A program made the position numbers and the translations under genes. The notes below the pieces were generated by a model, which was not told the origin of the DNA, ran no database searches, and was given only the letters and a program-made list of their open reading frames with translations. From the NCBI RefSeq assembly GCF_003012745.1, contig NZ_PXYK01000005.1, forward strand, positions 1 through 64,000: a stretch of DNA of 64,000 nt. Reading direction: 5' to 3'. Shown here in pieces: positions 8,614-27,814 of the stretch; position 1 is the stretch's first letter, and each line of letters begins with the position of its first letter. Source of the DNA: Kumtagia ephedrae (lineage in GTDB: Bacteria > Pseudomonadota > Alphaproteobacteria > Rhizobiales > Rhizobiaceae).

Positions 8614-9438
8614 CTACAAGGCCGCCACGAAAGCGAGCGAGCGCTGCATCGCCGCGCGGATATCGGCCAGCGGTACGCGGTCGGGCCGGCGCACCGGGTC
8701 GGCGCGGCCGCGGCGGTCGAGCCGCAGCGGCAGCTCGACGGCGACCGGCAGGCCGGGCGGCAAGACCTTCCAGACGGCGCGGTAGTCGATGGCGCCGTCG
8801 CCGATCGCGGTGAAGCGCCAGCCGTCCGCGCCGCTCGCGACGTCCTTCAGGTGCAGATGGGCGATCGCCTCGACCGCCGGCGCGATGTCGTCTTCAGGCT
8901 TCGTGCGTTCGTGGCTGTAGGTGAACACGTTGCCGACATCGTAGTTCAGCCGGACATGCGGTGAACCGATCTCGCGGACCAGCGCCGCGCCCTCCCCGCC
9001 GTTGCCGATCAGCGCGCCAGAACCGTGGCCGGGATTTTCCAGCGCCAGGACGATATCCGCGGCTTCGCATCGCGGCTGCACTGCCTCGATGACCGACAGG
9101 ATGCGCCGGCGATCGGCGACCTGCCCGGCATTGGTGATGACGAAGCGCGCGCCCAGTGCCGAGGCGAAGTCGATGCGCCCCGCCAGCATCGCCTCCGCTG
9201 CGGCCTCGCCGAGATCGAGATGCGCCGAGATCGCCATGACCGACAGGCCGGCGCCGGCGATCAGCCCGGCGAGCCGGGCCGCGCCGGCGTCGGAGAAGGC
9301 GGTCTCGTCGAAATCGACATAACCCTTGATGTAGGCGGGCTCGACCGAGCGGCAGCCGGCGGCCGCGATCTCCTCGATCGCGGTCTCCATGCCGTACCCG
9401 TCGAACAGCGCGGTCGAGACGGAAACGGTGCGTGTCAT
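8614..9438 (-). CDS. Xylose-isomerase-like TIM-barrel enzyme (sugar isomerase/epimerase or decarboxylase)
   Basis: 274 residues of the AP-endonuclease-2/xylose-isomerase-like barrel: SVEPAYIKG early, ALENPGHGSGAL (a Glu metal ligand) in the middle, LNYDVGNVF and HLHLKDV (Asp/His ligands) in the second half, VAVELPLRL near the end. Members include hydroxypyruvate and 2-oxo-tetronate isomerases and, to my recollection, the 3-oxo-isoapionate decarboxylase OiaC. It is the last gene of the minus-strand set with the RuBisCO-like protein and the ApnO paralogue, separated from them by a palindromic repeat, so a role on a branched sugar-acid intermediate is likely. The exact reaction is open. Confidence 0.8.
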   Translation of the reverse strand: MTRTVSVSTALFDGYGMETAIEEIAAAGCRSVEPAYIKGYVDFDETAFSDAGAARLAGLIAGAGLSVMAISAHLDLGEAAAEAMLAGRIDFASALGARFVITNAGQVADRRRILSVIEAVQPRCEAADIVLALENPGHGSGALIGNGGEGAALVREIGSPHVRLNYDVGNVFTYSHERTKPEDDIAPAVEAIAHLHLKDVASGADGWRFTAIGDGAIDYRAVWKVLPPGLPVAVELPLRLDRRGRADPVRRPDRVPLADIRAAMQRSLAFVAAL

Positions 9439-9580
9439 GAGGGTCTCCCGACCGGGTGCGAGGTCTCCTTCGGGCCGGCCCCCGCCAGGAGGGGGAGGTC
9501 AGCGAGCGTGACACTCTCCCTCCCCTCGTTGGCAGGGCACTCCCTCATGGAGCCTTCTGGAAAGCCGCGAGGTCCGAAAC

Positions 9581-9716
9581 CCCCACCCTAACCCCTCCCC
9601 ACAAGGGGGAGGGGAATCTTGCTGGCTCTCCGCGAGGCGCCAATCGTCAACGGTTTCGCGCGGCGTAGCGGCCGCAAAGTCCCCTCCCCCTTGTGGGGAG
9701 GGGTTAGGGGTGGGGG
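9581..9716. repeat. Palindromic intergenic repeat, CCCCTAACCCC/GGGGTTAGGGG family
   Basis: Two arms in inverted orientation (CCCCACCCTAACCCCTCCCC ... GGGGAGGGGTTAGGGGTGGG) enclose about 60 bases. Close copies at 19753-19892, 43521-43620 and 55603-55741. It lies between the ApnO paralogue and the TIM-barrel gene. Confidence 0.85.
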
Positions 9717-9742
9717 GTAAGCAAGCGATTGCCTTGCCAAAA

Positions 9743-10588
9743 TCAGGCGCCCTTGCCGTAGACGATGAGCTCGGCCGCCTCCTTGACCTTGGCCGGCGAC
9801 AGCGCGTCGCGCCATTCGTCCCGCACCACCACACCCTTGGCGAAGCGCATCAGCCGCAGCGCCGCGTCGGACGGCACCTTCGGCGAAAAGCCGAACCACA
9901 TGGCGATCTCGACATTGAGGTGGCCGATGAGGAAGTCGAGCGCCGCCTGGCGCGGAATGCCGTATTTCTTCTCGCACTCCTCGACCGCCTCGACCATGGT
10001 GTCGACGAAGGGCATCGCCACCATCTCCGACAGGCCCGGCTCCAGGATGGCGAGCTGCTCGACGCTGACGCGGTAGGAGTTGATGATCGGCGACCACATC
10101 GCCCGGCAGATCTCCTCGCCGAGCGCATAATGCTCCTCCGGTCCCTGCATCAGCGCGCAGACGATCGACTGCCGGGCGATGCCGCCGTGATAGTCGCGCC
10201 GCGCCGCCCAGTCGGTCTCGTCGTTGAACAGCGGCGGGTGGCAGGGATGGCCGACGAAATAGGTGAGGTCCGGCCGGTCCTTCGGCAGGTCGTCGGCATA
10301 GGGTGCCGCCGCGTCGAGGATGAGCAGCATGGTGCCGGTCTCCAGCTTCGGCGAAAGGTCCGCAGCGACCTTGCCGATGACGTTGTCCGGCAGCGCCAGC
10401 ACGAGCACCTTCGCGCCCTTGACGCCCGCATCGACGTCGACGGCGGCGATGCCGGCCTCGGCCAGGCGCTGGCGACCCGGCTCGCCGATCTCGACGGCGC
10501 GCACGTCATAGCCGGCGTCGACCAGCTTTCGGGTGACGCGGAACCCCATCTTGCCGCCCGAACCGAGCACGGCGACCGATGTTTTCAT
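9743..10588 (-). CDS. ApnO-like NAD-dependent oxidoisomerase paralogue
   Basis: 281 residues. N-terminal Rossmann motif AVLGSGGKMGFR and the segments ILDAAAPYAD, GHPCHPPLFNDE, CALMQGP and LAILEPGLSE align along the whole length with the gene at 17813-18640 (ILDAAAPFAG, THPCHPPIFNDE, SALMQGP, MAMLEPGLSE). Both belong to the family with a 6-phosphogluconate-dehydrogenase-like C-terminal domain that includes D-apionate oxidoisomerase. The other copy sits in the apsD-apnL-oiaK set and is the better apnO candidate; this one travels with the RuBisCO-like gene (47 bases away) and may act on a related acid or be a second apionate enzyme. GGGAGG precedes the ATG. Confidence 0.85.
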   Translation of the reverse strand: MKTSVAVLGSGGKMGFRVTRKLVDAGYDVRAVEIGEPGRQRLAEAGIAAVDVDAGVKGAKVLVLALPDNVIGKVAADLSPKLETGTMLLILDAAAPYADDLPKDRPDLTYFVGHPCHPPLFNDETDWAARRDYHGGIARQSIVCALMQGPEEHYALGEEICRAMWSPIINSYRVSVEQLAILEPGLSEMVAMPFVDTMVEAVEECEKKYGIPRQAALDFLIGHLNVEIAMWFGFSPKVPSDAALRLMRFAKGVVVRDEWRDALSPAKVKEAAELIVYGKGA

Positions 10589-10635
10589 GAAAACCTCCCT
10601 TGCATTCTGTGAGTGCGAAAAGCGTTGGTGAAGAC

Positions 10636-11901
10636 CTAGCCGAATGCCTGGAGCGCCGCGGCCAGCGCGGGATGGCTGCGGGCAAAGTCCTTTGCCGGAA
10701 TGCCTTGCTTCGCCGCCTGCCAGGCCTCGTGGATGCTGCGCACCCCGGCCTCGGCCCCGTCGGGATGAGCGACGATGCCGCCGCCAGCGCAGTAGATGAG
10801 ATCCTCGGAGCCGAGCAGCCGATAGGTCTCCTCCGCCTGCACGGCCGACTGCGCCGAGGAAAACACCGGCATCACCGTGTCCGGCCGGTCGGGGCGCCGG
10901 AACATGGGCGTCAGACACTCCCTGGCCGAGGCGATGACGCTGTCGTCGGGCTCGCAGAACTTGTTGGAAAGCCCGTTGACGTGCAGGTGGTCGACGCCGG
11001 CCAGCCGCCAGAACTTCTGATAGGCGCGGTAGCTCATGCCGAGCGCCGGCGAGCGGTCGTAGAGGCCCCAGCCGGCGCGGTGGCCGTGCAGCGCCACCGA
11101 GGCGTGCCGGCGGATCTCGATGACGCCGCTCAGCCCGACCGAGTTCAGCACCAGCATGGCGGCGGTGCCGCCGCGCTTCTCGATCACGTCGAGCTGGCGG
11201 CGCATGGCGTCCATGTCGCCGGAGATGTTGACGGCATACATCGCCTTGCGGCCGGTGCGGTCGGCGTGGCGGTCGATGACCTGCATCACCGCCTCGAAGC
11301 GCCGGGCGAAGGGCGAATGCGGCGGGTCTCCCATGAGCTCGTCGTCCTTGAGGAAGTCGAGGCCGGCGGAGATCATCCGGTCGGCCAGTTCGGCGGTCGC
11401 CTCCGGCGTCAGCCCGACGCTCGGCTTGACGATGGTGCCGACGATCGGCCGGCCGTGGACGCCGGTCAGCCGGCGCGTGCCCTCGACGGCGAAGGCGGGG
11501 CCGGGATAGGCCTCGGTGAAGGCGTCGGGCAGATCGAGCTCGAGCAGCCGCAGCGCCGAGAAATGGTGCAGCTCGAACAGATTGCCGAGCACCGTCGACC
11601 ACACAGACGACAGGATCGTGCCGGTGTTTTCCAGATTCCAGGAGATCGTGACATGGGCGCGGCGCGGGCGGGCCGAGGCCTCAGCCTTGGGCGGACGCGA
11701 GAACGGCAGGCTTTCCCCCTCCGCCTCGCCGATCTCCTCGATCCGCTCGACCCTGGCGCCGTAGCGCGCCAGCAGCTCCGGGGTCTCGCCGGGAATGGCG
11801 CGGAAGGTGCCGCTCGACTGCTCGCCGGCCATTGCCGCCGCCGCCTGCTCAAGCGGATAGCGTGTCTCGATCAGGTAGGTGGCGAGGATGCGGTCGGACA
11901 A
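10636..11901 (-). CDS. RuBisCO-like protein, candidate 3-oxo-isoapionate-4-phosphate decarboxylase or transcarboxylase/hydrolase
   Basis: About 421 residues from the TTG at 11901. Form IV RuBisCO-like barrel: GTIVKPSVGL carries the first active-site Lys (about 159) and DFLKDDE carries the carbamylation Lys (about 185) with the metal-binding Asp and Glu, both intact. AVNISGD, HVNGLSNKF and AGGGIVAHPDG are further phosphate or active-site segments. In the published D-apiose pathways RuBisCO-like proteins act on 3-oxo-isoapionate 4-phosphate, as decarboxylase (OiaX) or transcarboxylase/hydrolase (OiaT). No erythrulose-phosphate isomerase genes are visible, which mildly favours OiaT. The frame is open to a GTG at 11943; the TTG is preferred because SDRILATYLIET is a typical N-terminus and because it leaves a leader below the putative operator. 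Confidence 0.85.
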   Translation of the reverse strand: MSDRILATYLIETRYPLEQAAAAMAGEQSSGTFRAIPGETPELLARYGARVERIEEIGEAEGESLPFSRPPKAEASARPRRAHVTISWNLENTGTILSSVWSTVLGNLFELHHFSALRLLELDLPDAFTEAYPGPAFAVEGTRRLTGVHGRPIVGTIVKPSVGLTPEATAELADRMISAGLDFLKDDELMGDPPHSPFARRFEAVMQVIDRHADRTGRKAMYAVNISGDMDAMRRQLDVIEKRGGTAAMLVLNSVGLSGVIEIRRHASVALHGHRAGWGLYDRSPALGMSYRAYQKFWRLAGVDHLHVNGLSNKFCEPDDSVIASARECLTPMFRRPDRPDTVMPVFSSAQSAVQAEETYRLLGSEDLIYCAGGGIVAHPDGAEAGVRSIHEAWQAAKQGIPAKDFARSHPALAAALQAFG

Positions 11902-11952
11902 GGGCGGCCCCGGATCGGCGTGGCGATGCGGGCTGGATAGCACCCTTTAGAG

Positions 11953-11971
11953 TTCATGTCATCATATCAGT
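11953..11971. promoter_or_regulatory. Candidate GntR operator upstream of the RuBisCO-like gene
   Basis: On the minus strand this reads ACTGATATGATGACATGAA. Its ATATGATGAC core recurs at 12820-12829 in the divergent region between the GntR gene and the first binding-protein gene, so the same regulator may bind both. Inference from sequence similarity only. Confidence 0.4.
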
Positions 11972-11992
11972 TTGCCGGGAGCGAACCTCGGA

Positions 11993-12718
11993 TCAGGCGT
12001 CCGCCTCCACCTTCATCGGCTCGCCCAGTACCTTGTAGAGGTCGTTCGCCCGCGTGATGTGGTCGGCCATCATGGCGCTGGCGGTGGCGGCATCGCCGGC
12101 GGCGATCGCCTTGTGGATCTTCTCGTGCTCCTCGATGGTGAGCCGCTCGGCGCCGCGCACCGACACGAGATCGCGCTTGAAGCGCGACAGCCAGTCGAGC
12201 ATGCCCTTGGTGACGGCCGCCACCATCGAATTGCCGCTCATGTCGGCGATAAGGCCGTGAAAGGCCATGTCGGCGGCGACGAAGCGCGCATGGTCGCCGC
12301 GCGCCTCCTTGAGTTCGCGGATCGAGGCGGCGAGCCGGTCGAGGTCGCGCGCCGTGGCGTTGCGCGTCGCCATGCGCACCAGCGCGGTTTCCAGCCAGAG
12401 GCGGGCTTCCTTCAGCTCCTCCAGGCCGCGCGGGCTGGTGGCGAGCAGCATGATCATGGCCGCCGAGATCTGGTCGACCAGCACCTCGGCGGTCGGATTG
12501 ATGACGCGGGCGCGCTCGCCATGCGAGATCTTGATCAGCCCCATCTGCTGCAACGACAGCATCGCCTCGCGGATGGACGGCCGGCCGACGCCGATCATGC
12601 TCATCAGTTCGCGCTCCGACGGCAATTGCGAGCCCGGCGGGAATTCCGACGTGGAGATCGCCGCGATCAGGCGGTCGAGCACTTCCTGGTAGAGCTTCTT
12701 CTTGTGGACAGGCTCCAT
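11993..12718 (-). CDS. GntR-family (FadR/FCD subfamily) transcriptional regulator
   Basis: 241 residues from the ATG at 12718, which has AGGAAGG at proper spacing; the upstream in-frame ATG at 12814 would add an unlikely tail and cover the promoter. Winged helix-turn-helix at about residues 5-75 (GSQLPSERELMSMIGVGRPS is the recognition region), then an all-helical FCD effector domain with its metal-binding Asp/His residues in FVAADMAFHGLIADMS and MADHITRAN. It is divergent from the first sugar importer and points into the RuBisCO-like/ApnO-paralogue genes, so it is the probable local regulator, with a pathway acid as ligand. Confidence 0.88.
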   Translation of the reverse strand: MEPVHKKKLYQEVLDRLIAAISTSEFPPGSQLPSERELMSMIGVGRPSIREAMLSLQQMGLIKISHGERARVINPTAEVLVDQISAAMIMLLATSPRGLEELKEARLWLETALVRMATRNATARDLDRLAASIRELKEARGDHARFVAADMAFHGLIADMSGNSMVAAVTKGMLDWLSRFKRDLVSVRGAERLTIEEHEKIHKAIAAGDAATASAMMADHITRANDLYKVLGEPMKVEADA

Positions 12719-12810
12719 GCCGATGCCTTCCTGCTGCTGGTCGGCCCGTTCTACTGGACGTTCCCGGGCGACACAATCATCGCCAAAACCACGCATCGTT
12801 GCAATGATTG

Positions 12811-12830
12811 ACATGACATATATGATGACC
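12811..12830. promoter_or_regulatory. Candidate GntR operator in the divergent promoter region
   Basis: ACATGACATATATGATGACC, AT-rich in a GC-rich genome, with a CATATATG palindromic core. It shares ATATGATGAC with the site at 11953-11971. It lies between the regulator start (12718) and the binding-protein start (12913), where an autoregulating GntR protein would bind. Confidence 0.45.
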
Positions 12831-12912
12831 TAACGTGTTGTCACGACCCCCTTTGAGGTCGGCAGGTTGGAAGGCGCGCCGCGATGGCGCGTCCCGCGTT
12901 TCTGGGAGGGAA

Positions 12913-13926
12913 ATGCCAATGACAATCAACAGACGTGATTTCACCGTGGGCGCGCTGACGGCCATCGCCGCGGCCAGCGGCCTCACCGTCGCGGTGCGCG
13001 CACAGGGCACCAAGACCATCGCCGTCCTCTTCGACGGCCTCTATTCGGAGTTCTGGGTGGCGGGCATCCAGATCATCCGCGACGACCTGAAGAAACGCGG
13101 CTTCGAGATCATGGAAGCCATCTCGGACCAGGACGACAACAAGCAGTTCGAGCAGGTGCGCGCCGCGATCGCCCGCAAGGTCGACGGCATCATCATCGTG
13201 CAGACCGATTCCAACGCCGTCATCCCGGCGATCAAGGCGGCCAACGCTGCCAACATCCCGATGGTGCATTTCAACCGGCCGCCGGCCGAGACCGACGCCT
13301 TCTCGGTCGCCATCCAGGCCGACAACCAGAAGATATCGCGCGACGCCGTCACCTATTCCTGCGAGGTGGCGAAGGCATCCGGCAAGAAGCACAAGGCGGC
13401 GATCCTGATCGGCGACCTCGGCGACCCCAACGCCATCCAGCGCCGCGACGGATTTCAGGAGGCGGTCGACAAGTTCCCGGATGCGATCGAGGTGGTGGCC
13501 AAGATCCCGACCGAGTGGAACGCCGACACCGCCTTCGCCGGGCTGACCAACGCGCTGCAGGCCAATCCCGACATCTCCTTCATCTTCACCTCCTCCGACT
13601 TCCTCATCCCGCAGATCCAGCAGGCGCTGAAATCCGCCGACAAATGGTATCCGGTCGGCGACGAGAAGCATGTCATCTTCACCGGCTTCGACGGCTTTCC
13701 CGATGCCTATGCGCTGATGAAGGACGGCTACATGGACGCCTGCGGCGTGCAAAACCTGTTCTACGAGACCGAGCTCGCCATCCAGGCCATCCTCGACCTG
13801 CAGGCAGGCAAGAAGGTCGACAAGTTGCTGCTCGACCCCGGCTTCGCCATCACCCAGAAGAACATGGAGGAGAAGAAGGAGGAGATGTGGGGCTACGTGC
13901 TGTGGAAGGCGAAGAACGCCGGCTGA
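12913..13926 (+). CDS. Sugar ABC importer periplasmic binding protein (Tat signal)
   Basis: 337 residues, RbsB-like (Peripla_BP_4) sugar-binding fold. The N-terminus has a twin-arginine signal (NRRDFTVGALTAIAAASG, with cleavage probably near VRAQG), unusual but known for sugar-binding proteins. KTIAVLFDGLYSEFW, IIRDDLKKRGFEI, KVDGIIIVQTDSNAVIPAI and FTGFDGFPDAYALMKDG are typical family segments. First gene of an operon with two permeases and an ATPase followed by candidate D-apiose catabolic genes, so D-apiose or a related plant branched sugar is the likely ligand. The ATG at 12913 follows GGGAGGG; an ATG at 12919 is also possible. Confidence 0.9.
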   Translation: MPMTINRRDFTVGALTAIAAASGLTVAVRAQGTKTIAVLFDGLYSEFWVAGIQIIRDDLKKRGFEIMEAISDQDDNKQFEQVRAAIARKVDGIIIVQTDSNAVIPAIKAANAANIPMVHFNRPPAETDAFSVAIQADNQKISRDAVTYSCEVAKASGKKHKAAILIGDLGDPNAIQRRDGFQEAVDKFPDAIEVVAKIPTEWNADTAFAGLTNALQANPDISFIFTSSDFLIPQIQQALKSADKWYPVGDEKHVIFTGFDGFPDAYALMKDGYMDACGVQNLFYETELAIQAILDLQAGKKVDKLLLDPGFAITQKNMEEKKEEMWGYVLWKAKNAG

Positions 13927-14238: not shown

Positions 14239-15276
14239 ATGACCGCAGTGCCGCCCGCACAACTCGCCCGAACCGCCGGCCCAAGCGCCGGAATGACGCG
14301 CTTCATCAGGCCGATCCTGTCGGAATATTTCGTGCTGGTGCTGTGCGTGCTCTACGTCGCGGCGATCTATCCCTTCGTACCCGAGATCGTCACGTGGGGC
14401 GTGTGGTCGAACATCCTGAGCGACATGATGCCCCTGCTGGTCGTGGCGATCGGCCAGACCTTCGTGCTGATCGTCGCCGGCATCGATCTCTCCGTCACCG
14501 CAATCATCTCGATGGCGGCCGTCGTCGGCGCTTCGGTGATGACCGGCAATGGCGGCTATCTCGGCGGCAGCGCGCTGGCGGTGCCCGTTGCGGTCCTGGC
14601 GATGCTGATCGTCGGGCTCGGCATCGGCGCGATCAACGGCCTTTCCGTCGTTAAGCTGAACATGCCGCCCTTCATCGTCACGCTGGCGACCCGCATGTTC
14701 GTCGCCGGCGCCGCCATCTGGTACGTGACCTTCCACTCGACCTCCTCCTCGATTGCCGGCCTGCCGGACGCCTTCACCGGCTTCGCCACGGGCTCGCTCG
14801 CCGGCCTGCCCTATACGGTGATCGTCGCCGGGCTGATCGCGGTCGCTGCGCACATGCTCCTGTCGCGCACCCGCTACGGCCGCTGGATCTATGCCGTCGG
14901 CGCCAATCCCAAGGCGGCGCGCGTCTCCGGCATCCCGGTGGAGCGCACCATCCTGATGACCTTCCTGATCAGCGGCGCCTGCGCCTCGGTGGCGGCGATG
15001 ATGTATGCCTCGCGCATGCAGACGGGCTCCCCGATCGCCGGCGAGAACATCCTGCTCGACGTCATCGGCGCGGTCGTCATCGGCGGCACCAGCCTGTTCG
15101 GCGGCAAGGGCAAGATCGTCTGGACGGTGTTCGGCGTGCTGTTCCTGCTCATCCTCGACACCTCGATGAAGCTGCTCGGCGCCTCGCTGTTCGCCATCTA
15201 CATCATCAAGGGCAGCGTCATCCTGCTGGCGGCGATGATGGACACGCTGCGCAACCGCATCCTGACGGAGCGCTAG
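14239..15276 (+). CDS. Sugar ABC importer permease (RbsC family)
   Basis: 345 residues with about nine or ten membrane helices. GQTFVLIVAGIDLSV is the conserved RbsC-family segment near the N-terminus, and the cytoplasmic coupling loop GANPKAARVSGIPVERT lies at mid-length. LFGGKGKIVWTVFGVLFLLIL near the end also fits the family. Start at 14239 is chosen because upstream codons run through a repeat and hairpin; a start at 14293 (MTRFIRP) is the alternative and neither has a strong ribosome-binding site. Pairs with the permease at 16811 to form the channel. Confidence 0.87.
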   Translation: MTAVPPAQLARTAGPSAGMTRFIRPILSEYFVLVLCVLYVAAIYPFVPEIVTWGVWSNILSDMMPLLVVAIGQTFVLIVAGIDLSVTAIISMAAVVGASVMTGNGGYLGGSALAVPVAVLAMLIVGLGIGAINGLSVVKLNMPPFIVTLATRMFVAGAAIWYVTFHSTSSSIAGLPDAFTGFATGSLAGLPYTVIVAGLIAVAAHMLLSRTRYGRWIYAVGANPKAARVSGIPVERTILMTFLISGACASVAAMMYASRMQTGSPIAGENILLDVIGAVVIGGTSLFGGKGKIVWTVFGVLFLLILDTSMKLLGASLFAIYIIKGSVILLAAMMDTLRNRILTER

Positions 15277-15278
15277 GG

Positions 15279-16814
15279 ATGGCCGACGGAACCATGCCGC
15301 TGCTCGAGGTCGAGGGCCTGCGCAAGAGCTTCTTCGGCGTCACTGTGCTGCACGACGTCGGCTTCTCGGTGAAACCCGGCGAGGCGCTCGGCCTGGTCGG
15401 CGAGAACGGCTCGGGCAAGTCGACCAGCATGAACATCCTCGGCGGCGTCCACCAGCCGGACGCCGGCGAGATGCGCCTCGACGGCAAGCCCTACGCGCCC
15501 GCCGACCCGAAGGCCGCGATCGCCGCCGGCGTCGCCTTCATCCACCAGGAGCTCAACCTCTTCCAGAACCTCTCCATCGCGGAAAACCTGTTCGTCGACG
15601 CCTTTCCCCGCCGCGGCGGGCTGCTGCCGCTGATCGACCGCAAGGCGATAAGCGCGCGCACCGAGGCGGTGCTGAAGGAGGTCGACCTGCACATGAAGCC
15701 GTCGACCGAGGTCGCCCGGCTGAGCCAGGGCGAGCGGCAGCTGGTCGAGATCGCCAAGGCGTTGTCGCGCAACGCCCGGCTGATCATCTTCGACGAGCCG
15801 ACCACCTCGCTGACCCGGCCCGAGGTCGAGCGGCTGTTCGCCATCATAGAGCGGCTGAAGCAGCGCGGCATCGCCATCATCTACATCAGCCACGCGCTGG
15901 AGGACGTGATGGCGACCTGCGAGACCATCACCGTGCTGCGCGACGGCCATCTCGCCGGCGCCGGCGCGGCGAAGGACCTGTCGCTGCAGCAGATCATCGC
16001 CATGATGGTCGGGCGCTCGATCGACACCATCTATCCGCAGCGATCCGGGACGACCGGCACGGAGGTCGCTTTCTCGGTCTCGGGCCTGACCCAGCCCGGC
16101 GTCGCCGAGAACATCGGCTTCGACATCAAGGCCGGCGAGATCGTCGGCCTCGCCGGCCTGATGGGCTCCGGCCGCTCCGAGCTGGCGCGCATGATCTTCG
16201 GCCTGGATTCCTTCCGCAGCGGCCGCATCGAGATCGGCGGAAAGCCGCTCTCCGAGCCGACGCCGGTCAAGGCGATGGAGGCGGGCATCGCCTTCCTCAC
16301 CGAGGACCGGCGCGGCGAAGGCCTGCTGATGGACTTCACCATCGCCGAGAACACCGTGCTCGCTTCGCTGCGCGACGTCGCCGGCGCCTTCGGCATCCTC
16401 GACGGCGGCAAGATCGCGAAGGTGTCGCTGGAGATGGCCTCCGCCATGCGGCTGTCGACCGACAAGGTCGGCGAGGTCAAGGTGAAGCACCTTTCCGGCG
16501 GCAACCAGCAGAAGGTGGTGATCGGCAAATGGCTGCGCCGCCAGCCGAAGCTGTTCATCCTCGACGAGCCGACGCGCGGCATCGACGTCGGCGCCAAGCA
16601 GGAGGTCTACCGCATCATCAACGGGCTGGTCGAGCGCGGCAGCGCCGTGCTGCTGATATCGTCAGAGATCGAGGAACTGATCGGCCTGTCCGACCGCATC
16701 CTGACGATCTCGCGCGGCGAGATCACCGGCTCCTTCGACCGGCGGCCGTTCGACCGGGAGGCGATCATGACGGCGGCGGCGGGACTGACCGCAAGGTTGG
16801 AGGCGGCGTTATGA
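15279..16814 (+). CDS. Sugar ABC importer ATPase, two nucleotide-binding domains
   Basis: 511 residues, RbsA/MglA-like. The first domain has Walker A GENGSGKST (about 47-55), signature LSQGERQLVEIAKAL and Walker B LIIFDEPTTSL; the second has the usual degenerate Walker A (LMGSGRSE), signature LSGGNQQKVVIGKWL and Walker B LFILDEPTRGID. The start lies two bases after the permease stop and its own stop overlaps the next permease start (ATGA), so the importer genes are tightly coupled. Confidence 0.93.
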   Translation: MADGTMPLLEVEGLRKSFFGVTVLHDVGFSVKPGEALGLVGENGSGKSTSMNILGGVHQPDAGEMRLDGKPYAPADPKAAIAAGVAFIHQELNLFQNLSIAENLFVDAFPRRGGLLPLIDRKAISARTEAVLKEVDLHMKPSTEVARLSQGERQLVEIAKALSRNARLIIFDEPTTSLTRPEVERLFAIIERLKQRGIAIIYISHALEDVMATCETITVLRDGHLAGAGAAKDLSLQQIIAMMVGRSIDTIYPQRSGTTGTEVAFSVSGLTQPGVAENIGFDIKAGEIVGLAGLMGSGRSELARMIFGLDSFRSGRIEIGGKPLSEPTPVKAMEAGIAFLTEDRRGEGLLMDFTIAENTVLASLRDVAGAFGILDGGKIAKVSLEMASAMRLSTDKVGEVKVKHLSGGNQQKVVIGKWLRRQPKLFILDEPTRGIDVGAKQEVYRIINGLVERGSAVLLISSEIEELIGLSDRILTISRGEITGSFDRRPFDREAIMTAAAGLTARLEAAL

Positions 16815-17791: not shown

Positions 17792-17812
17792 CCGGACTGG
17801 AGATTGACTGAC

Positions 17813-19687: not shown

Positions 19688-19752
19688 TGGTCGACATGAC
19701 CGTTTCACGCTCCACCCCCTCTACCGAGCGCAGGGCAATCGCAGGTGAGCTT

Positions 19753-19892
19753 ACCCCCACCCCTAACCCCTCCCCACAAGGGGGAGGGGGACTGGCTGGC
19801 ATCTCCGCTTGGCGCCAATCATCGGCGATTTCTGCTGGCATGGCGGCCGCAAAGTCCCCCTCCCCCTTGTGGGGAGGGGTTAGGGGTGGGGG
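19753..19892. repeat. Palindromic intergenic repeat, CCCCTAACCCC/GGGGTTAGGGG family
   Basis: Arms CCCCCACCCCTAACCCCTCC and GGGGAGGGGTTAGGGGTGGG enclose about 60 bases that resemble the middle of the copy at 9581-9716 (both carry GGCGCCAATC and GCGGCCGCAAAGTCC). It occupies most of the 310-base gap between apsD and apnL; I see no gene in the rest of that gap. Confidence 0.85.
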
Positions 19893-19997
19893 TATCGGGC
19901 GCGGCGATGCATCCAGAACTTCCATAGACGATAGCGCTCGCCCCGCTGCTCCCCCCTCACCCTCGACAACGGGACGAACAGCCATGAGACCACCGGT

Positions 19998-21902
19998 ATG
20001 AGCATGGCCACGACACGCCTCGAAATCCTCTGCGGCACGAATGAGCCGCCGGCCGCCTCGCGCTGGCTGACGGCCGGGCCGCTCGGCGCCGAGTTCAGCG
20101 GCGGCAATCTGCGGGCGATCACCTGGCACGGCCATGAGGCGCTGCGCGCCGTCTCCTATCTGGTGCGCGACGAGAACTGGGGCACCTATGCGCCGGAATT
20201 TTCGGAGATCAAAGTCGAGGAGCAGCCGGACCGCTTCGCCGTGAGCTACCGGGCGTCGTGCAAGGCGGCGGACGGCGCGACGCTGACCTACGAGGCGCGC
20301 ATCGAAGGCGATGCCGGCGGGCGTCTCGTCTTCGACGTCGCCGCCCTGCCCGACCGCGATTTTCTCACCAACCGCTGCGGCTTCTGCATCCTGCACCCGA
20401 TCGTCGGCGTCGCCGGCGAGCCGGTCGAGGTCGAGCATGTCGACGGCTCGGTGGAAGAGGCGCACTTTCCCGAGACGGTCGACCCGGCGCAGCCTTTCTT
20501 CGACATGCGCGCGATCAAGCATACGGTAACGCCGGGCGTCACGGCGACGTGCCGCATGGAAGGCGACGCCTTCGAAATGGAGGACCAGCGCAACTGGACG
20601 GACGCCTCCTACAAGACCTATGTGCGGCCGCTTGCCCTGCCCTGGCCCTACGAACTGCGCGCCGGCGGGGCACAACGCCAGGCGATCACGCTGACACTTT
20701 CAGGCACGCCGGCGGCGCCGCGCTCGGCAGCAGATCGGCCGATAGTCGTCACCATTGGCGACGAGACCGATGCGGCTCCCGATTTCGGGCTGGTGGTCAC
20801 GCCCGAGGAGACCGCAGCGACATTGGCGGCAATCGAGGGGTTGGCGCAGATCGCACCGCGCCATCTGATCCTGCACTACAACCCCGCCGAGGGGCACAGC
20901 GCGGCAGCACTTGCCGGCTTCGCGAAGCTCCTGCGGCGACTTCCGCTGCCGGCCACGCTGGAATGCGTGCTGCCCTGCCGCGACCGGCCGGAGGCGGAGC
21001 TGCGCGAGACCGCGCGGCTGGTGGCCGAAGCGGACCTGTCGCTGTCGGCACTGGCGGTCAGCCCGGCGCCCGACCTGAAATCGACGCCGCCCGGCAGCAC
21101 ATGGCCTGACTGTCCGCCGCTCGACGAGATCTACCGCGCCGCGCGTAAAATCTTTCCCGGCGTGCCGCTCGGCGGCGGCATGTTCAGCTATTTCACCGAG
21201 CTCAACCGCAAGCGCCCGCCGGCCGAACTTCTCGACTTCGTCACCCACACGACGGCGCCGCTGGTGCATGCCGCCGACGACCGCAGCGTCATGGAGACGC
21301 TGGAGGCGCTGCCTTTCGTCACCCGCTCGGTGCGCGCCATCTTCGGCGACAAGCCGTACCGCATCGGCCCTTCGGCCATCGGCATGCGCCACAACCCCTA
21401 TGGCGCGCGGCTCGCCGACAATCCCGGCGCGGCGAGGCGCATGACCATGGTCGACGACGACCCGCGCCAGAAGGGCCTGTTCGCTGCTTCTTGGATGATC
21501 GGCTATGCGGCGTCGACCGCCCCCGCCGGCCTGACGCATCTGACGCTGGGCGCGCTCACGGGGCCGTTCGGCGTGGTCGACGCGGGCGGGCGCAGGCCAG
21601 CCTTCCATGCCGCGCGCGCTCTCGCTCGGTTATCCGGGCTGACGATGCGCGTGGCGGAAAGCAGCGACCCGGCAAAAGTGCTGGCGCTCGCTGCCGGCCG
21701 GACCGTGCTGGTCGCCAACCTGACTGCCGATGCCATATCGATCGGCGTGCCGGGAGCAGCGAGGGCGGAAGTCCTGGACGAGGAGAGCTTTGCCGCGGCG
21801 GCCGACGGCAGGCCGTTGCCCGAGCGGACACTCGACGGAACGCGCTTGCGGCTCGGCGCCTACGGCTTCGCGGCAGTCGCCACGGAAAGCCCCCTCCCGT
21901 GA
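19998..21902 (+). CDS. apnL: Candidate D-apionate lactonase
   Basis: 634 residues, cytoplasmic, no signal peptide. The N-terminal about 230 residues contain segments such as YLVRDENWGTYAPEFSEI, EDQRNWTDASYKTYVRPL and LPWPYELRAGG that I associate with the D-apionolactonase family; a long second part of about 350 residues has barrel-like strand-helix alternation. ApnL opens D-apionolactone to D-apionate. The stop overlaps the kinase start (GTGA), so the two are coupled. The in-frame ATG at 20004 is a possible alternative start. Confidence 0.8.
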   Translation: MSMATTRLEILCGTNEPPAASRWLTAGPLGAEFSGGNLRAITWHGHEALRAVSYLVRDENWGTYAPEFSEIKVEEQPDRFAVSYRASCKAADGATLTYEARIEGDAGGRLVFDVAALPDRDFLTNRCGFCILHPIVGVAGEPVEVEHVDGSVEEAHFPETVDPAQPFFDMRAIKHTVTPGVTATCRMEGDAFEMEDQRNWTDASYKTYVRPLALPWPYELRAGGAQRQAITLTLSGTPAAPRSAADRPIVVTIGDETDAAPDFGLVVTPEETAATLAAIEGLAQIAPRHLILHYNPAEGHSAAALAGFAKLLRRLPLPATLECVLPCRDRPEAELRETARLVAEADLSLSALAVSPAPDLKSTPPGSTWPDCPPLDEIYRAARKIFPGVPLGGGMFSYFTELNRKRPPAELLDFVTHTTAPLVHAADDRSVMETLEALPFVTRSVRAIFGDKPYRIGPSAIGMRHNPYGARLADNPGAARRMTMVDDDPRQKGLFAASWMIGYAASTAPAGLTHLTLGALTGPFGVVDAGGRRPAFHAARALARLSGLTMRVAESSDPAKVLALAAGRTVLVANLTADAISIGVPGAARAEVLDEESFAAAADGRPLPERTLDGTRLRLGAYGFAAVATESPLP

Positions 21903-23191
21903 AGCCGCTGCTCAGCTATTACGGCGACGATCTCACCGGCTCCACCGACGTGATGGAGGCGCTGGAACTGCGCGGCATCCCGACGGTGCTGTTCGCCGGC
22001 ATTCCGGCGCCTAAGGTCGCCGCCCGCTTCGCCGGGCACAGGGCGGTCGGCATCGCCGGCACCAGCCGCAGCGAGACGCCGGAATGGATGGACGCGCACC
22101 TGCCGCCGGTCTTCGCCTGGCTCAAGGCGCGGGACGCGGAGATCTGCCACTACAAGGTCTGCTCGACCTTCGATTCCACCCCGACGGTCGGCAGCATCGG
22201 CCGGGCGCTGGACATCGGGGCGAACATCTTCGGGCAGGCCTCGACGCCGCTGGTGGTCGGCGCGCCCGAGCTCAGGCGCTACACCGCCTTCGGCAATCTG
22301 TTCGCGGCGTTCCGCGGCGACAACCACCGCATCGACCGCCATCCGGTGATGAGCCGCCATCCGGTGACGCCGATGCACGAGGCGGATTTGCGCCTCCATC
22401 TGGCCCGGCAGACGGACAAGCCGGTCGGCCTGGTCGACCTCGTCCGCGTCAAGCATGGCATTTCCGCCGAGGAGCTGGACACCGTCTTCGCGGCCTTTCC
22501 GATCGTCCTGCTCGACGTTCTGGACACGGACACCCAGCGGATCGTCGGCAGCCATCTGTGGCGCCGGCGCAAGCTGTCGCCTTTCGTCGTCGGCTCGTCG
22601 GGCGTGGAATATGCGTTGACTGCCGAAGGCGCAGACACGCCGCTCGCCGGCCGCCAGCGAATATTCGAGCGGCCGGGCGCCCGCGGTCCGATCGCCGTCG
22701 TTTCCGGCAGTTGCTCGCCCACCACAGAACGCCAGATACGCCACGCCGAGGTCCACGGCTTCGTCGGCATCGCGCTGAATGCGACCGCGCTCGCGGCCGA
22801 GAATGCGGCCGGCGAGATCGACCGCGGCGTCACCGCCGGCACTCAGGTGCTGCAATCCGGCAAAAGCCCCCTCCTCTACACCGCGCTCGGCGGCCAGACG
22901 CCCGGCACCGATCTCAAGGGCCGTGATCACCTGATCGGCATCGGCCTCGGCCGCATCCTCGACACGCTGGTGCGCCGCTTTGCTCTCGGGCGGGCCGTGG
23001 TCGCCGGCGGCGACACATCCAGCCACGCCATCGCAGAGCTCGGCATCGAGGCGCTGGAATGCCGCATCCCGCTGGCGCCCGGCTCGCCGCTCTGCACCGC
23101 GCACAGGCGCGACGGCGGCGCGATCGAGATCGCCTTCAAGGGCGGACAGGTCGGCGACGACGATTATTTTGTGGTGGCCCGCGACATCTGA
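21899..23191 (+). CDS. oiaK: Candidate 3-oxo-isoapionate kinase, four-carbon acid sugar kinase family (DUF1537)
   Basis: 430 residues from a GTG that overlaps the apnL stop by four bases. N-terminal YYGDDLTGSTDVMEALELRG is the DUF1537 substrate-domain motif; KVCSTFDSTPTVGSIG follows. The C-terminal nucleotide-binding domain has VVSGSCSPTTERQI and VVAGGDTSSHAIAELG (GGDTS phosphate-binding). The family phosphorylates acid sugars; the apiose context points to 3-oxo-isoapionate, giving the 4-phosphate that the RuBisCO-like enzyme would use. Confidence 0.85.
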   Translation: MKPLLSYYGDDLTGSTDVMEALELRGIPTVLFAGIPAPKVAARFAGHRAVGIAGTSRSETPEWMDAHLPPVFAWLKARDAEICHYKVCSTFDSTPTVGSIGRALDIGANIFGQASTPLVVGAPELRRYTAFGNLFAAFRGDNHRIDRHPVMSRHPVTPMHEADLRLHLARQTDKPVGLVDLVRVKHGISAEELDTVFAAFPIVLLDVLDTDTQRIVGSHLWRRRKLSPFVVGSSGVEYALTAEGADTPLAGRQRIFERPGARGPIAVVSGSCSPTTERQIRHAEVHGFVGIALNATALAAENAAGEIDRGVTAGTQVLQSGKSPLLYTALGGQTPGTDLKGRDHLIGIGLGRILDTLVRRFALGRAVVAGGDTSSHAIAELGIEALECRIPLAPGSPLCTAHRRDGGAIEIAFKGGQVGDDDYFVVARDI

Positions 23192-23294: not shown

Positions 23295-24332
23295 ATGTTG
23301 AGCAGACTCACGGCATTTTCCTGCGCGGTCTTCACCGCGCTTGCGGGTTTGGGCATGGCGGGCACGGCAGAAGCTTCGTCCGACAAGCCGGTGATCGCGC
23401 TGTCGAATTCCTTCTACGGCAACACCTGGCGCCGCCAAATGGTCGACGCCTTCACGGCGGAGGCCGAGAAGGCCAAGGCGGAGGGCAAGATCGCCGACTT
23501 CGTCGTGCTGAACGGCGACGGCAGCGTCAACCAGCAGAACAGCCAGATGGCCGAGCTGATCCTGCGCGGCGTCGACGCCATCGCCATCAACGCGGCGTCC
23601 GAAACGGCCCTCAACGGGCTGGCGGAAAAAGCCTGCGCGGCCGGGATCACGGTGGTCGCCTTCGACTCGCTGCTGACCGCCGACTGCGCCTACAAGCTGT
23701 CCTTCGATTTCACCAGCTACAAGACCGAGCAGGCGAAGGCGACGCTCGACCTCATCGGCAACAAGGGCAACGTCATCGTCGTGCGCGGCGTCAAGGGCTC
23801 CGGCCCGGACAATCTGATGTATGCCGCCCAGAAGGCGGTGCTGGACGCCAATCCGGACGTCAAGGTGGTCGCCGAGGTCTTCGGCCAGGCGACGGCATCG
23901 GTGGCGCAGTCGGCCATCGCCAACGTGCTGCCCAGCCTGCCGCAGGTCGACGCCGTGCTCGGCCAGGGCGGCAGCGACGACTTCGGCATCGCCCAGGCCT
24001 TCGTGCAGGCCGGCGGCCCCTATGCCGAAAAACTGCCGGTGATCGAGGGCGGCGGCTCCAGCGACTTCGTCATCTGGTGGAACGACCAGGCGGCCAAGGG
24101 CTACAAGACCACCTCGATGAACACGACGCCCGGCATCGGCGGCGCCGCCTTCTGGCTCGCCTACGAGATCGTCAAGGGCGCCAAGCCGGCAAAGGAGATG
24201 AACATGCCGGTCGCCGTGGTCGAGCCCGCCAATCTCACGGAGATGGCGAAGGACCTGAAGCCCGGCTTCATCATCAGCCCGAGCTACAGCCAGGAATGGG
24301 TCAAGCAGAACCTGGTCGACAAGACGCAGTGA
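23295..24332 (+). CDS. Sugar ABC importer periplasmic binding protein (second system)
   Basis: 345 residues. Sec signal peptide at the N-terminus (FSCAVFTALAGLGMAGTAEA, cleavage likely at AEA-SSD), then an RbsB-like fold: VIALSNSFYGNTWRRQM, MAELILRGVDAIAINAASE, GITVVAFDSLL, VIVVRGVKGSGPDN. Little resemblance to the first binding protein, so the ligand may differ. GGGAGG precedes the ATG; an intrinsic terminator follows the gene. Confidence 0.92.
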   Translation: MLSRLTAFSCAVFTALAGLGMAGTAEASSDKPVIALSNSFYGNTWRRQMVDAFTAEAEKAKAEGKIADFVVLNGDGSVNQQNSQMAELILRGVDAIAINAASETALNGLAEKACAAGITVVAFDSLLTADCAYKLSFDFTSYKTEQAKATLDLIGNKGNVIVVRGVKGSGPDNLMYAAQKAVLDANPDVKVVAEVFGQATASVAQSAIANVLPSLPQVDAVLGQGGSDDFGIAQAFVQAGGPYAEKLPVIEGGGSSDFVIWWNDQAAKGYKTTSMNTTPGIGGAAFWLAYEIVKGAKPAKEMNMPVAVVEPANLTEMAKDLKPGFIISPSYSQEWVKQNLVDKTQ

Positions 24333-24396: not shown

Positions 24397-26868
24397 ATGA
24401 ACGCTTCGATGGAGATCGACACCATCCGTCCGCCGGCCGCTCGACCGGCGCCGGATGCCCTGCTTTCGCTGGCGGGTGTTGCCAAGACCTATGGCAGCAC
24501 CCGCGCCGCGCAGGCGATCGACCTCGACGTCGCCACCGGCGAGGTGGTCGGGCTGGTCGGTGCCAACGGTGCCGGCAAGAGCACGCTGATGCGCATCGTC
24601 TGCGGCGTGACCGAGCCGGACACGGGCACGATGGCGTTCGGCGGGCGGCCGGTCGACCTTGTCGCCTTCTCGCCGCGGGCGGCGCGCGACGCCGGCATCC
24701 GCATCGTCTGGCAGGAGCTGTCGCTGTCGCCCAACCTCAGCGTCGCCGAGAATTTTTACGTCGAGCAGCCGCAATTCGCGCGGCTGTCGCCGCTGTGGCT
24801 GGCGGACTATCACAGGCTGGCCCGCGACAGCATCGAGCGCATCTTTCCGGGCGCGCGCATCCCGACCTCCCGCCTCGTCGCCGATCTGACGCTCGCCGAA
24901 CGGCAGATGGTGGAGATCGCCCGCGCAGCGAGCGATCCGCGGCTAAAACTGCTCATCCTCGACGAGCCGACCTCCTCGCTTGGCGCCGAGCGCAGCGCCC
25001 AGTTGCGGCAGTTCGTGCGCGAACAGGCGGGCAAGGGCGTCGCCGTCGTCTTCATCAGCCACAAGCTGGCGGAGGTGCTCGACATCTCCGACCGGGTGGT
25101 CGCCATGCGCAACGGCCGGCTGGTCTGGCAGAAGCCGGCCGGCGAGACCTCGATCGGCGATCTCGTCGAGGCGATGGGCGGCGCCGAAGCCGGCGACCGC
25201 TCGACCCGCCCGGCCCTCGATGCAGCCAAGGCCGGACGGCCGGTAAGGGTGCGGCTCTCCGGCGACCTCGTTTCGACGGGCGGCCCGATCGAACTGCGCG
25301 CCGGCGAGATCGTCGGCCTTGCCGGGCTCGAGGGCAGCGGCCAGCGCAACCTGCTGCAGCGCCTGTTCGCCAAGCCGCGGCCGGGCGAGGTCGAGCGCGA
25401 CGGCGAGGTCCGCTACGTTTCCGGCGACCGCCAGGGCGAAGGCGTGTTCCCGCTGTGGAGCGTGCTGGAGAACATCGGCATCGGCCGCGTCGCCCGGCTT
25501 GCGGCGCTGACGCCGGTGAAGGCTGCCGACCAGCGCCCGCTTGCCGCGTCGCTGGCCAAGCGGCTGGCGCTGGACGAAAGCCGGTTCGACGCCGGCATCC
25601 TCGACCTGTCGGGCGGCAATCAGCAGAAGGTGCTGGTCGCCCGCGCCCTGACGGACGAGGCCGAGATCATCCTGCTCGACGATCCGACGCGCGGCGTCGA
25701 CATCGCCGCCAAGCGCGATTTCTACCGGCTGGTGCGCGAGACCGCCGCCGCCGGGCGGCTGGTGATCTGGCATTCCACCGAGGATCTCGAATTCCTCGAA
25801 TGCGACCGCGTGCTGGTGTTCGCCAGGGGCGAGATCGTCGCCGAACTCGGGGGCGACGCCATCAGCGAGGACCGCATCGTCGCTGCGTCCTTCCAGCAGC
25901 CCGCCGCCGGTCGCACGGCGCAGGCGGCGAAGCGGGCGGGCGCGATCGGCCCATTTCTGCTGCGCGCCATCCCCTTCCTCAGCCTCATCCTGGTGTTCGC
26001 CGCCATGAGCTGGATGAACCCGCTGGTGGCGTCCAGCTTCGGCATCGAGCTGCTGCTGGCGCCGGCGGTCACGCTGGTTCTGATCGCACTCGCCCAGATG
26101 TTCGTGGTCGGCGGCAGCGAGATCGACCTCGGCATCGGCTCCTTCACCGGCCTGGTCAACGTCATCAGCGCCACGCTGCTGGTCACCTCGCCGCTGCTTG
26201 GCTTCGCCGCGCTGCTGGCCGGACTCGCCGGCTACTGCCTGATCGCCGTGCTGATCCATGCGCGCGCCATCCCGGCGATCGTGGTGACGCTCGGCGCCTC
26301 CTTCATCTGGGCCGGCTTCGGCCAGACGCTGCAACCCTCCCCCGGCGGCTCCAGCCCGCAATGGCTGACGGCGCTGTTCACCTGGAGCATCCCCGGCATC
26401 CCGACGCCGCTGGCGCTGATCCTGATCGCGGCGGCCGCGGCCTTCCTGATCGACCGCTCGCCGGCCGGCACGGTGCTGCGCGCCTTCGGCTCGAGCCCGC
26501 TGGCGCTCAAGCGGGGCGGCTGGTCGCCGCTCAGATACGGCGTCATGCGCTATGCCATCGCCTGCCTGTTCGCCATGGCTGCCGGCCTCTATGTGACGGC
26601 CGCCAACAATGCCAGCGACATCAATGCCGGCGGCTCCTTCACGCTGCTCGGCATCGCCGCCGTCGTCATCGGCGGCTGCCAGCTGCTCGGCGGCTTCATC
26701 GCGCCGCTCGGCGTCGTGGCCGGCGCGGTGACGCTGTCGCTGATCGGCGCGCTGCTCGCCTCGCTGGGGGTCAGCACCAACTACAACGCGGCGGTGCAGG
26801 GAGCCCTGCTCATCGTCATTTTGGGATTGCAGGCGGCGCTCGTCGCCAGGGGCAGGCGTCATGGCTGA
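24397..26868 (+). CDS. Sugar ABC importer ATPase fused to permease
   Basis: 823 residues joining two normally separate subunits. Residues about 25-500 form an RbsA-type double ATPase: Walker A GANGAGKST, signature LTLAERQMVEIARA, Walker B LLILDEPTSSL, then degenerate second Walker A GLEGSGQRN, signature LSGGNQQKVLVARAL and Walker B IILLDDPTRGVD. From about residue 515 an RbsC-type permease follows, with IALAQMFVVGGSEIDLGIG, a coupling-loop region at GSSPLALKRGG and helices to the C-terminus. No stop or frameshift separates the halves. The next permease overlaps its 3' end by eight bases. Confidence 0.93.
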   Translation: MNASMEIDTIRPPAARPAPDALLSLAGVAKTYGSTRAAQAIDLDVATGEVVGLVGANGAGKSTLMRIVCGVTEPDTGTMAFGGRPVDLVAFSPRAARDAGIRIVWQELSLSPNLSVAENFYVEQPQFARLSPLWLADYHRLARDSIERIFPGARIPTSRLVADLTLAERQMVEIARAASDPRLKLLILDEPTSSLGAERSAQLRQFVREQAGKGVAVVFISHKLAEVLDISDRVVAMRNGRLVWQKPAGETSIGDLVEAMGGAEAGDRSTRPALDAAKAGRPVRVRLSGDLVSTGGPIELRAGEIVGLAGLEGSGQRNLLQRLFAKPRPGEVERDGEVRYVSGDRQGEGVFPLWSVLENIGIGRVARLAALTPVKAADQRPLAASLAKRLALDESRFDAGILDLSGGNQQKVLVARALTDEAEIILLDDPTRGVDIAAKRDFYRLVRETAAAGRLVIWHSTEDLEFLECDRVLVFARGEIVAELGGDAISEDRIVAASFQQPAAGRTAQAAKRAGAIGPFLLRAIPFLSLILVFAAMSWMNPLVASSFGIELLLAPAVTLVLIALAQMFVVGGSEIDLGIGSFTGLVNVISATLLVTSPLLGFAALLAGLAGYCLIAVLIHARAIPAIVVTLGASFIWAGFGQTLQPSPGGSSPQWLTALFTWSIPGIPTPLALILIAAAAAFLIDRSPAGTVLRAFGSSPLALKRGGWSPLRYGVMRYAIACLFAMAAGLYVTAANNASDINAGGSFTLLGIAAVVIGGCQLLGGFIAPLGVVAGAVTLSLIGALLASLGVSTNYNAAVQGALLIVILGLQAALVARGRRHG

Positions 26869-27814
26869 CCGCGCCCTCGCCTTCGCCCGCACCAACCGCT
26901 GGATCTGGCCGGCGCTCGGCATATTGCTCTTGTGGGCGATCCTGACCGCCATCACCGCGCGTTTCAGCCTGCACAGCCTGAGCGGCGTCGCCATCTCGGC
27001 CTCGTTCCTGCTCCTGCCGGCGCTCGGCCAGATGCTGGTCGTCACCACCGGCAAGGGCAATATCGACCTGTCCATCCCGAGCATGGTGACGCTGAGCGCC
27101 TATCTCACCGTGATGACCTCCACCGGTTCGACGGCGGGTTTTCTGCTGACGCTGGCCATCGTGCTGGCGGCGACAGCGCTGGTCGGCATGCTCAATGCTC
27201 TGCTCGTGCTGGTGCTGCGCATCCCCGCCATGATCGCGACGCTGGCCATGGGCTACATCCTCGCCACCGCGACGCTGATCGTGAACGCGCAGATCGGCAT
27301 GTTCGCCAAGCCGGCGCTACTCGGCTTTCTGTCCACGGGCCGTATTGCCGGCCTGCCGATGATGTGCGTCATCGCCGTCATCGCGACCGGCGCGGCCGGA
27401 TTGCTGCTGGCGCGCACCGCCTATGGCCGAAAGCTGTTCGCCGTCGGCCAGAGCGCCGAGGCGGCGCGGCTGGCCGGCATTCCCGTCGCCCGGGTGATCG
27501 CCTCGACCTTTGTTGCGAGCGCGATGCTCTCCGGGCTCAGCGGCCTGCTGCTCGCCGGCTATGCAGGCGGCGCCTTCCTGGAGATGGGCACCCCTTACCT
27601 GCTCCAGTCGGTCGGCGCCGTCGTGCTCGGCGGCACGCTGATCGCCGGCGGCAACGCCACCGCGCTGGGCACGCTGCTCGGGGGCATGCTTCTGGTCATG
27701 ATCGTCACCACCATGCAGATCGCCGGTCTGCCGCCCGGCGCCCAGGACATTTTGCAAGGCGTCGTCATCATCGCGGTGCTGTCGGTCGCCGGCACCAGGA
27801 TCGGCCGGCGCTGA
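26861..27814 (+). CDS. Sugar ABC importer permease (RbsC family), partner of the fusion
   Basis: 317 residues, about nine membrane helices. GQMLVVTTGKGNIDLSIPS is the family segment (ID preserved) and GQSAEAARLAGIPVAR the coupling loop. Its start lies inside the fusion gene's 3' end, so the fusion permease half and this subunit probably form the channel. The gene ends 13 bases before the convergent nasA gene. Confidence 0.91.
   Translation: MADRALAFARTNRWIWPALGILLLWAILTAITARFSLHSLSGVAISASFLLLPALGQMLVVTTGKGNIDLSIPSMVTLSAYLTVMTSTGSTAGFLLTLAIVLAATALVGMLNALLVLVLRIPAMIATLAMGYILATATLIVNAQIGMFAKPALLGFLSTGRIAGLPMMCVIAVIATGAAGLLLARTAYGRKLFAVGQSAEAARLAGIPVARVIASTFVASAMLSGLSGLLLAGYAGGAFLEMGTPYLLQSVGAVVLGGTLIAGGNATALGTLLGGMLLVMIVTTMQIAGLPPGAQDILQGVVIIAVLSVAGTRIGRR

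Follow-up and report, generated by a model that had tools for sequence, protein, structure and literature searches.

Pathways for the plant sugar D-apiose that employ OiaK plus routes via RuBisCO-like proteins (RLPs) were reportedly described by Carter et al. in 2018 (Nat Chem Biol). A. radiobacter K84 and X. autotrophicus possess RLPs that catalyse decarboxylation and transcarboxylation/hydrolysis of 3-oxo-isoapionate-4-phosphate, as stated in PMC6302742 with reference to Carter et al. 2018.

Similar to these pathways the window, i.e. the entire 64,000-nucleotide stretch of Kumtagia ephedrae DNA analysed here, harbours ApsD-, ApnL-, ApnO- and OiaK-like genes together with an RLP and a NanR-annotated regulator, as do plasmid loci of Rhizobium and Paracoccus. 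It differs from the pathways of Carter et al. in having two ApnO types, a TIM-barrel enzyme (hereafter the barrel), an RLP outside the OiaX clade and two ABC importers. The locus is conserved, real and mostly explained by the known pathway; what stays unusual is the pair formed by the second ApnO-like protein (ApnO2) and the barrel.

Gene content and predicted pathway

The locus comprises two divergent gene runs at positions 8614-27814 of the window, and all named genes are intact ORFs in the order and on the strands given in the original prediction (Table 1). The genome of 6.1 Mb (completeness 99.74) contains no PF16896 genes besides the two of this locus and no PF00016 gene besides that of the RLP.

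Table 1. Positions of the predicted genes and repeat elements of the locus within the window
Feature	Position	Strand	Basis
Xylose-isomerase-like TIM-barrel enzyme (barrel)	8614-9438	-	PF01261, 87.2 bits (cut-off 31.1)
Palindromic repeat element, barrel/ApnO2 junction	9580-9716		
ApnO2, second D-apionate-oxidoisomerase-like protein	9743-10588	-	PF16896, 204.9 bits
RuBisCO-like protein (RLP)	10636-11943	-	PF00016, 220 bits
GntR/FCD regulator, NanR-like	11993-12814	-	NCBIfam, 279.9 bits (cut-off 260)
ABC importer 1, sugar-binding protein	12835-13926	+	family search
ABC importer 1, permease	14239-15276	+	named by translation and context
ABC importer 1, ATPase	15279-16814	+	named by translation and context
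ABC importer 1, second permease	16811-17791	+	named by translation and context
ApnO1, D-apionate oxidoisomerase-like	17804-18640	+	PF16896, 251.3 bits
ApsD-like Gfo/Idh/MocA dehydrogenase	18653-19687	+	Gfo/Idh/MocA Pfam domains above cut-off
Palindromic repeat element, ApsD/ApnL junction	19752-19894		
ApnL, D-apionate lactonase	19998-21902	+	NCBIfam NF049900, 816.8 bits (cut-off 750)
OiaK-like four-carbon acid sugar kinase	21899-23191	+	NCBIfam NF042436, 441.9 bits (cut-off 700)
ABC importer 2, sugar-binding protein	23295-24332	+	family search
ABC importer 2, ATPase-permease fusion	24397-26868	+	named by translation and context
ABC importer 2, permease	26861-27814	+	named by translation and context

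The GC-rich palindromic repeat is present in four copies in the window. Two of them occupy the barrel/ApnO2 and the ApsD/ApnL junctions, both of which are tight in the related locus L007, and the other two are located at about 43534-43604 and at 55616-55727.

The predicted affiliation to the D-apiose-type loci was borne out, with ApnL exceeding its curated cut-off. The ApsD-like protein possesses the Gfo/Idh/MocA Pfam domains and matched no curated ApsD model, while homologues sharing 60-76% identity occur in many related loci; both ApnO1 and ApnO2 match PF16896 and no curated ApnO model. The score of the OiaK-like kinase below its cut-off could be taken to indicate another substrate. This interpretation was rejected, since kinases from OiaX loci (L041, 478.6 bits; L129, 477.6 bits; L111, 463.5 bits) miss the cut-off too, and at 464-479 of 700 bits the NF042436 threshold seems too strict for these three kinases.

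Based on gene content, family relations, conservation, residue patterns and co-occurrence, from which we infer every reaction, the locus probably serves the catabolism of D-apiose/D-apionate with the RLP acting as an OiaT-type transcarboxylase/hydrolase and not as an OiaX decarboxylase. For the enzymes of the locus we assume the following reaction names and products. D-apiose would be imported and then oxidised by ApsD, and ApnL would open the lactone to form D-apionate. ApnO1 and/or ApnO2 would convert D-apionate to 3-oxo-isoapionate via oxidation and hydroxymethyl migration. OiaK would phosphorylate 3-oxo-isoapionate, and the RLP would cleave the OiaK product to 3-phosphoglycerate and glycolate. 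The barrel probably functions together with ApnO2, in a step adjoining the 3-oxo-isoapionate node.

Co-occurrence of ApnO2 and the barrel

The search for ApnO2 relatives used one genome per species and gave 79 loci from the best 80 of 200 relatives. Proteins were assigned to the ApnO2 type if they showed more than 62% identity to ApnO2 of the window in the alignment, which applied to 37 of the 96 PF16896 proteins including the window and not to the other 59. The ApnO of locus L038, being about 60% identical, lies outside this cut; the corresponding genome, G033, is nevertheless included in the set of 34 with ApnO2-type loci.

Among these 34 genomes, which derive from the best 80 of 200 relatives, 31 encode the barrel (at least 43% identity), the exceptions being G013, G021 and G029. 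For comparison, 16 genomes were selected among the 43 loci L040-L082 and typed by locus as ApnO1; none of them encodes the barrel at this level, and one (G049) has barrel matches of 30-32%. A barrel profile gave strong matches in ApnO2-type loci only. The paralogue and the barrel do form a distinctive conserved unit, which supports this part of the original prediction. In the neighbourhoods compared, ApnO1-type genes occur with OiaK and RLPs of the OiaX clade or other RLPs, and the usual neighbour of ApnO2-type genes is the barrel. The order RLP-ApnO2-barrel is kept in 12 of the 79 loci from the best 80 of 200 relatives (L004-L009, L011-L015 and L017), with a transporter inserted in three of them, and in the S. 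meliloti plasmid locus L083; because of this recurrence the layout is not due to chance.

A search starting from the barrel in 397 genomes of the order revealed five barrels with at least 43% identity, so that the barrel is rare. Four of the five adjoin ApnO2 and the fifth (G304) has ApnO2 about 6 kb away. As one is the window itself and three correspond to genomes already sampled (G162 to G009, G304 to G017 and G285 to G034, equated by identical coordinates and scores), this draw adds G364 only and was dropped as an independent test. The pairing rests mainly on the whole-genome count of 31/34 versus 0/16.

The RLP is not an obligate part of the unit. ApnO2 and the barrel occur without an RLP in the fetched loci L010, L020, L026, L027, L036, L039 and L139. 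Conversely, OiaK has a related RLP but no barrel in its vicinity in L056, L057, L061, L079, L080 and L082. Both observations speak against the original prediction of a single branch comprising RLP and barrel. In L139 and L020 our queries found only an importer, a regulator, ApnO2 and the barrel; the genome of L020 encodes OiaX, OiaK and ApnO1 elsewhere. Among the genomes searched as a whole, which leave out that of L139, absence of both an RLP and a close OiaK was observed only for L039 (MAG), L022 (remnants only) and L023 (MAG, RLP fragment).

In L022 (Rhodobacter calidifons), at about 12440-13450, ApsD is only partly matched and closely followed by an OiaK remnant of 109 residues directly before the importer, and the RLP is gone from the locus. 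This remnant is the only OiaK match in the genome. The arrangement looks like a deletion and L022 is a doubtful example of a clean RLP-free locus.

The MAG G033 (locus L038, C194) carries an RLP beside the intermediate ApnO and a barrel of 47% identity on another contig; its best OiaK match is 32%. Literature searches on apiose, apionate or hamamelose together with RLPs, which were not aimed at the barrel, retrieved no paper on an ApnO-barrel pair.

Putative function of the barrel

The structure model of the barrel is confident (mean pLDDT 95) and resembles UlaE and ketose 3-epimerases. With UlaE, D-tagatose 3-epimerase and L-ribulose 3-epimerase the barrel shares the fold, according to the model, and the E/D/H metal-ligand pattern; sequence identity to its 50 best structural matches is 13-21%. 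E134, D167 and H196 align with the respective E, D and H of UlaE, and together with E235 they are invariant in 29 sequences. The first three are residues of the metal site, and E235, lying outside the printed UlaE alignment, is probably the fourth ligand.

Against NCBIfam the barrel reached no curated cut-off; an L-ribulose-5-phosphate 3-epimerase was rejected since the scores amount to 21-26 bits only, compared to cut-offs of 200-317. The sequence search of the PDB gave no match at 1e-3, and the profile search for remote relatives returned distant matches only, mostly isomerases and epimerases.

Distant relatives on plasmids share 28-41% identity with the barrel, and none of five matched an NCBIfam model at 1e-5. 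The relatives in L089 and L093 adjoin DhaK/DhaL genes, those in L090 and L091 have DhaK/DhaL, TPI-like, RpiB-like and transaldolase genes nearby, and that of S. fredii (L094) adjoins DhaK/DhaL and an ApnO1-type gene. The neighbouring DhaK/DhaL, TPI and RpiB genes suggest a decarboxylase giving L-erythrulose, i.e. OiaC, whose name, reaction and affiliation to this kind of barrel are presumed here. It is conceivable, though we would not favour it outright, that the barrel is such a metal-dependent 3-oxo-isoapionate decarboxylase, in which case 3-oxo-isoapionate would have two competing exits, one through the barrel to L-erythrulose and one through OiaK and the RLP. This interpretation relates to the barrel alone and can stand alongside the preferred pathway. 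The metal site would fit enediolate chemistry, and the own genome of the window contains four Dak1 genes, a LerI-like gene and an RpiB gene. Furthermore, L039 contains ApnO2 and the barrel, with a DAK-type kinase at a distance of about 8 kb; its genome (MAG) has a LerI-like gene of 51% and gave no PF00016 match.

However, seven of the 31 barrel genomes (G001, G002, G006, G018, G022, G025 and G031) show neither Dak1 nor LerI, G009, G010, G012 and G023 lying outside the LerI search. RLP and OiaK (at least 40%) are both present in 27 of the 31. DhaK/DhaL genes are also located beside OiaX-type RLPs in the barrel-less stretches L078, L081 and L129, and among the barrel relatives with split transketolase genes nearby (L092, L093 and L095) two, L092 and L095, lack DhaK. 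The value of DhaK/DhaL as proof of OiaC is weakened by the seven genomes without Dak1 and by a barrel-less stretch with a Rhizobium OiaX locus in which DhaK/DhaL are present.

To a similar degree the barrel might be an isomerase or epimerase feeding ApnO2. The two readings are left about equal because of the barrel genomes without Dak1 and LerI, the barrel-less OiaX loci with DhaK/DhaL and the loci that consist of importer, regulator, ApnO2 and barrel only.

ApnO2 and a possible second branch

ApnO1 and ApnO2 of the window are 50.5% identical and have the motifs GxGGKMG, HPCHPP, QGPE and EPxLSE in common. The nearest solved structures are 3c24 (putative oxidoreductase), which is nearer to ApnO2, and 5t57 (semialdehyde dehydrogenase NAD-binding protein), which is nearer to ApnO1. 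According to the original prediction, the paralogue, the barrel and the RLP may constitute a separate branch that handles a different branched sugar acid. In favour of this, ten fixed positions separate the two ApnO types, some of them adjoining HPCHPP. In addition to an ApnO1-OiaK-OiaX set, some genomes also hold a GntR-RLP-ApnO2-barrel module that has a separate importer, the module being located on other contigs in Aureimonas (L006, L014) and nearby on the same contig in Mesorhizobium (L011-L013, L015).

TRAP transporters often carry acids. In L004 (7009-9868), L005 (7011-9848) and L009 (6993-9823) TRAP transporter genes, read by eye, are inserted between the RLP and ApnO2 genes, which suggests the direct import of an acid. 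An Ochrobactrum RLP is tied to D-hamamelose assimilation with 3-phosphoglycerate and glycolate in an excerpt of PMC8914248, and as far as this excerpt goes another branched sugar may be considered.

Nevertheless, a branch for a different acid seems unlikely. The ApnO2 type is the sole PF16896 gene found in 12 of the 34 genomes from the best 80 of 200 relatives, and in six of these (G018, G021, G022, G028, G029 and G030) matches to ApsD, ApnL, OiaK and an RLP are present in the same locus, the RLP match of G028 containing a stop. Isolates account for two of the six (L025, L033) and uncultured or MAG assemblies for the other four, in which a second ApnO gene could be missing. Being the sole PF16896 protein beside ApsD, ApnL, OiaK and RLP, ApnO2 most simply performs the D-apionate step there and need not act on another acid, contrary to what had been concluded from its paralogy. 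In the three of these six genomes that were scored, ApnL reaches only 354-368 of 750 bits, so that D-apionate is a likely but not a certain substrate. The GntR-RLP-ApnO2-barrel module furthermore lacks a kinase of its own, and the RLP presumably requires a substrate that is phosphorylated. Finally, ApnO2 and the barrel persist without a window-type RLP in L010 and L026, whose genomes hold an RLP of OiaX type only.

Classification of the RuBisCO-like protein

The RLP of the window is neither MtnW nor OiaX, as judged from scores, phylogeny and residues. An MtnW-type enzyme, which would have contradicted the original prediction, was ruled out by a score of 126.9 bits compared to the cut-off of 513.6. 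The best NCBIfam model for the RLP is OiaX (NF042437) with 440.1 bits, below the cut-off of 700, and it shares about 44% identity with OiaX-annotated proteins, both of which could point to a divergent OiaX decarboxylase in a locus that merely duplicates the Rhizobium pathway. The same model gives 788.8 bits for L041, 785.2 for L111 and 781.5 for L129, the first two being members of the OiaX clade and L129 an apiose locus outside the tree sampling.

In a tree of 72 RLPs, calculated by a quick method that leaves several forks open, the OiaX clade comprises 26 rows (SH-aLRT 100) and excludes the RLP of the window, which is placed in another supported group, made up of 15 rows that are mostly Hyphomicrobiales. 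It belongs to a wider group that also includes OiaX. The residue patterns differ as well. We compared 18 RuBisCO positions, mapped by eye from the alignments after removal of the junk row L126 and given in what we take to be the spinach numbering, and the catalytic residues are largely kept in the RLP of the window. The differences are sharpest at E60, N123 and H327, which are kept in 16/16 window-type and 29/29 other non-OiaX RLPs, as opposed to D, G and Q at these positions in 26/26 RLPs of the OiaX clade. K177 is replaced by S in window-type RLPs and mostly by A in OiaX, and G380 is variable among window-type RLPs.

OiaX requires the isomerase LerI for the use of its product, and an OiaX-annotated plasmid stretch contains a TPI-like and an RpiB-like gene, without ApnO. 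LerI was searched in 49 genomes (match at identity of at least 49%), of which G019, G020 and G034 were left out of the count as they have no full-length RLP; G034 has LerI. It was detected in 13 of 14 genomes with OiaX only, in all seven with OiaX plus another RLP and in 5 of 25 with non-OiaX RLPs only, i.e. in 20 of 21 genomes with OiaX versus 5 of 25 with only non-OiaX RLPs. The Fisher test gives p = 2e-5 for OiaX-only versus non-OiaX-only genomes and 1.7e-7 once the mixed genomes are added, values that overstate independence because related species share ancestry.

In these counts G013 (second TPI at 42%) and G029 (MAG, no TPI found) are taken as lacking LerI, G041 as possessing it on the basis of its sole TPI match at 49%, which may be an ordinary TPI, and the RLP class of G035-G053 is that of the fetched locus alone. 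A second non-OiaX RLP is present both in G001 and in G006, which were assigned to the non-OiaX genomes. Within the Paracoccaceae, labelled according to the RLP tree and for G024 the genus name, LerI occurs in 4/4 OiaX genomes (G043-G046) and in 0/4 of G024, G025, G026 and G050.

The predominant absence of LerI with non-OiaX RLPs favours an OiaT role for such RLPs. LerI-like genes may also serve the use of erythritol, in which case their presence would be a less reliable sign of OiaX. In the own genome of the window a LerI-like TPI (70%) and an RpiB (65%) are encoded, hence the LerI test does not decide for the RLP of the window and a decarboxylase is possible there. A divergent OiaX is nonetheless the least probable of the alternatives considered, given the position outside the OiaX clade, the differing active-site residues, the lack of a LerI match in 20 of the 25 genomes whose RLPs are all non-OiaX and the maintenance of both RLP types side by side in some genomes. 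The proposed role as an OiaT-type transcarboxylase/hydrolase is favoured over decarboxylation; the OiaT of Xanthobacter autotrophicus, to which the RLP may correspond, would be expected to depend on a RuBisCO-like active site but not on LerI.

RLP genes were furthermore observed in two other contexts. On a Haloterrigena haloarchaeal plasmid (L086, 9116-14828) the RLP gene is accompanied by genes for a four-carbon acid sugar kinase and an ApnO-like protein, with a TRAP transporter a few kb away, so that these genes may have been transferred between domains. The stretch L088 (9968-16487) of Bradyrhizobium elkanii contains RLP, kinase, TRAP and SDR genes, with no ApnO annotated, and possibly represents another RLP pathway.

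Implications

The E/N/H and D/G/Q marks may separate two RLP classes in automatic annotation. RLPs that may still perform carboxylation chemistry bear on the evolution of RuBisCO. Furthermore, the analysis singles out ApnO2 and the barrel as an enzyme pair that is amenable to assays with the purified proteins. A more speculative scenario, which we consider rather doubtful, is that both act together with an importer and a regulator as a self-contained unit converting a branched sugar acid to a central metabolite without kinase or RLP. If true, the chemistry of this unit would be new to the family, the barrel being either a new type of decarboxylase or an isomerase that supplies ApnO2 with another stereoisomer or acid.
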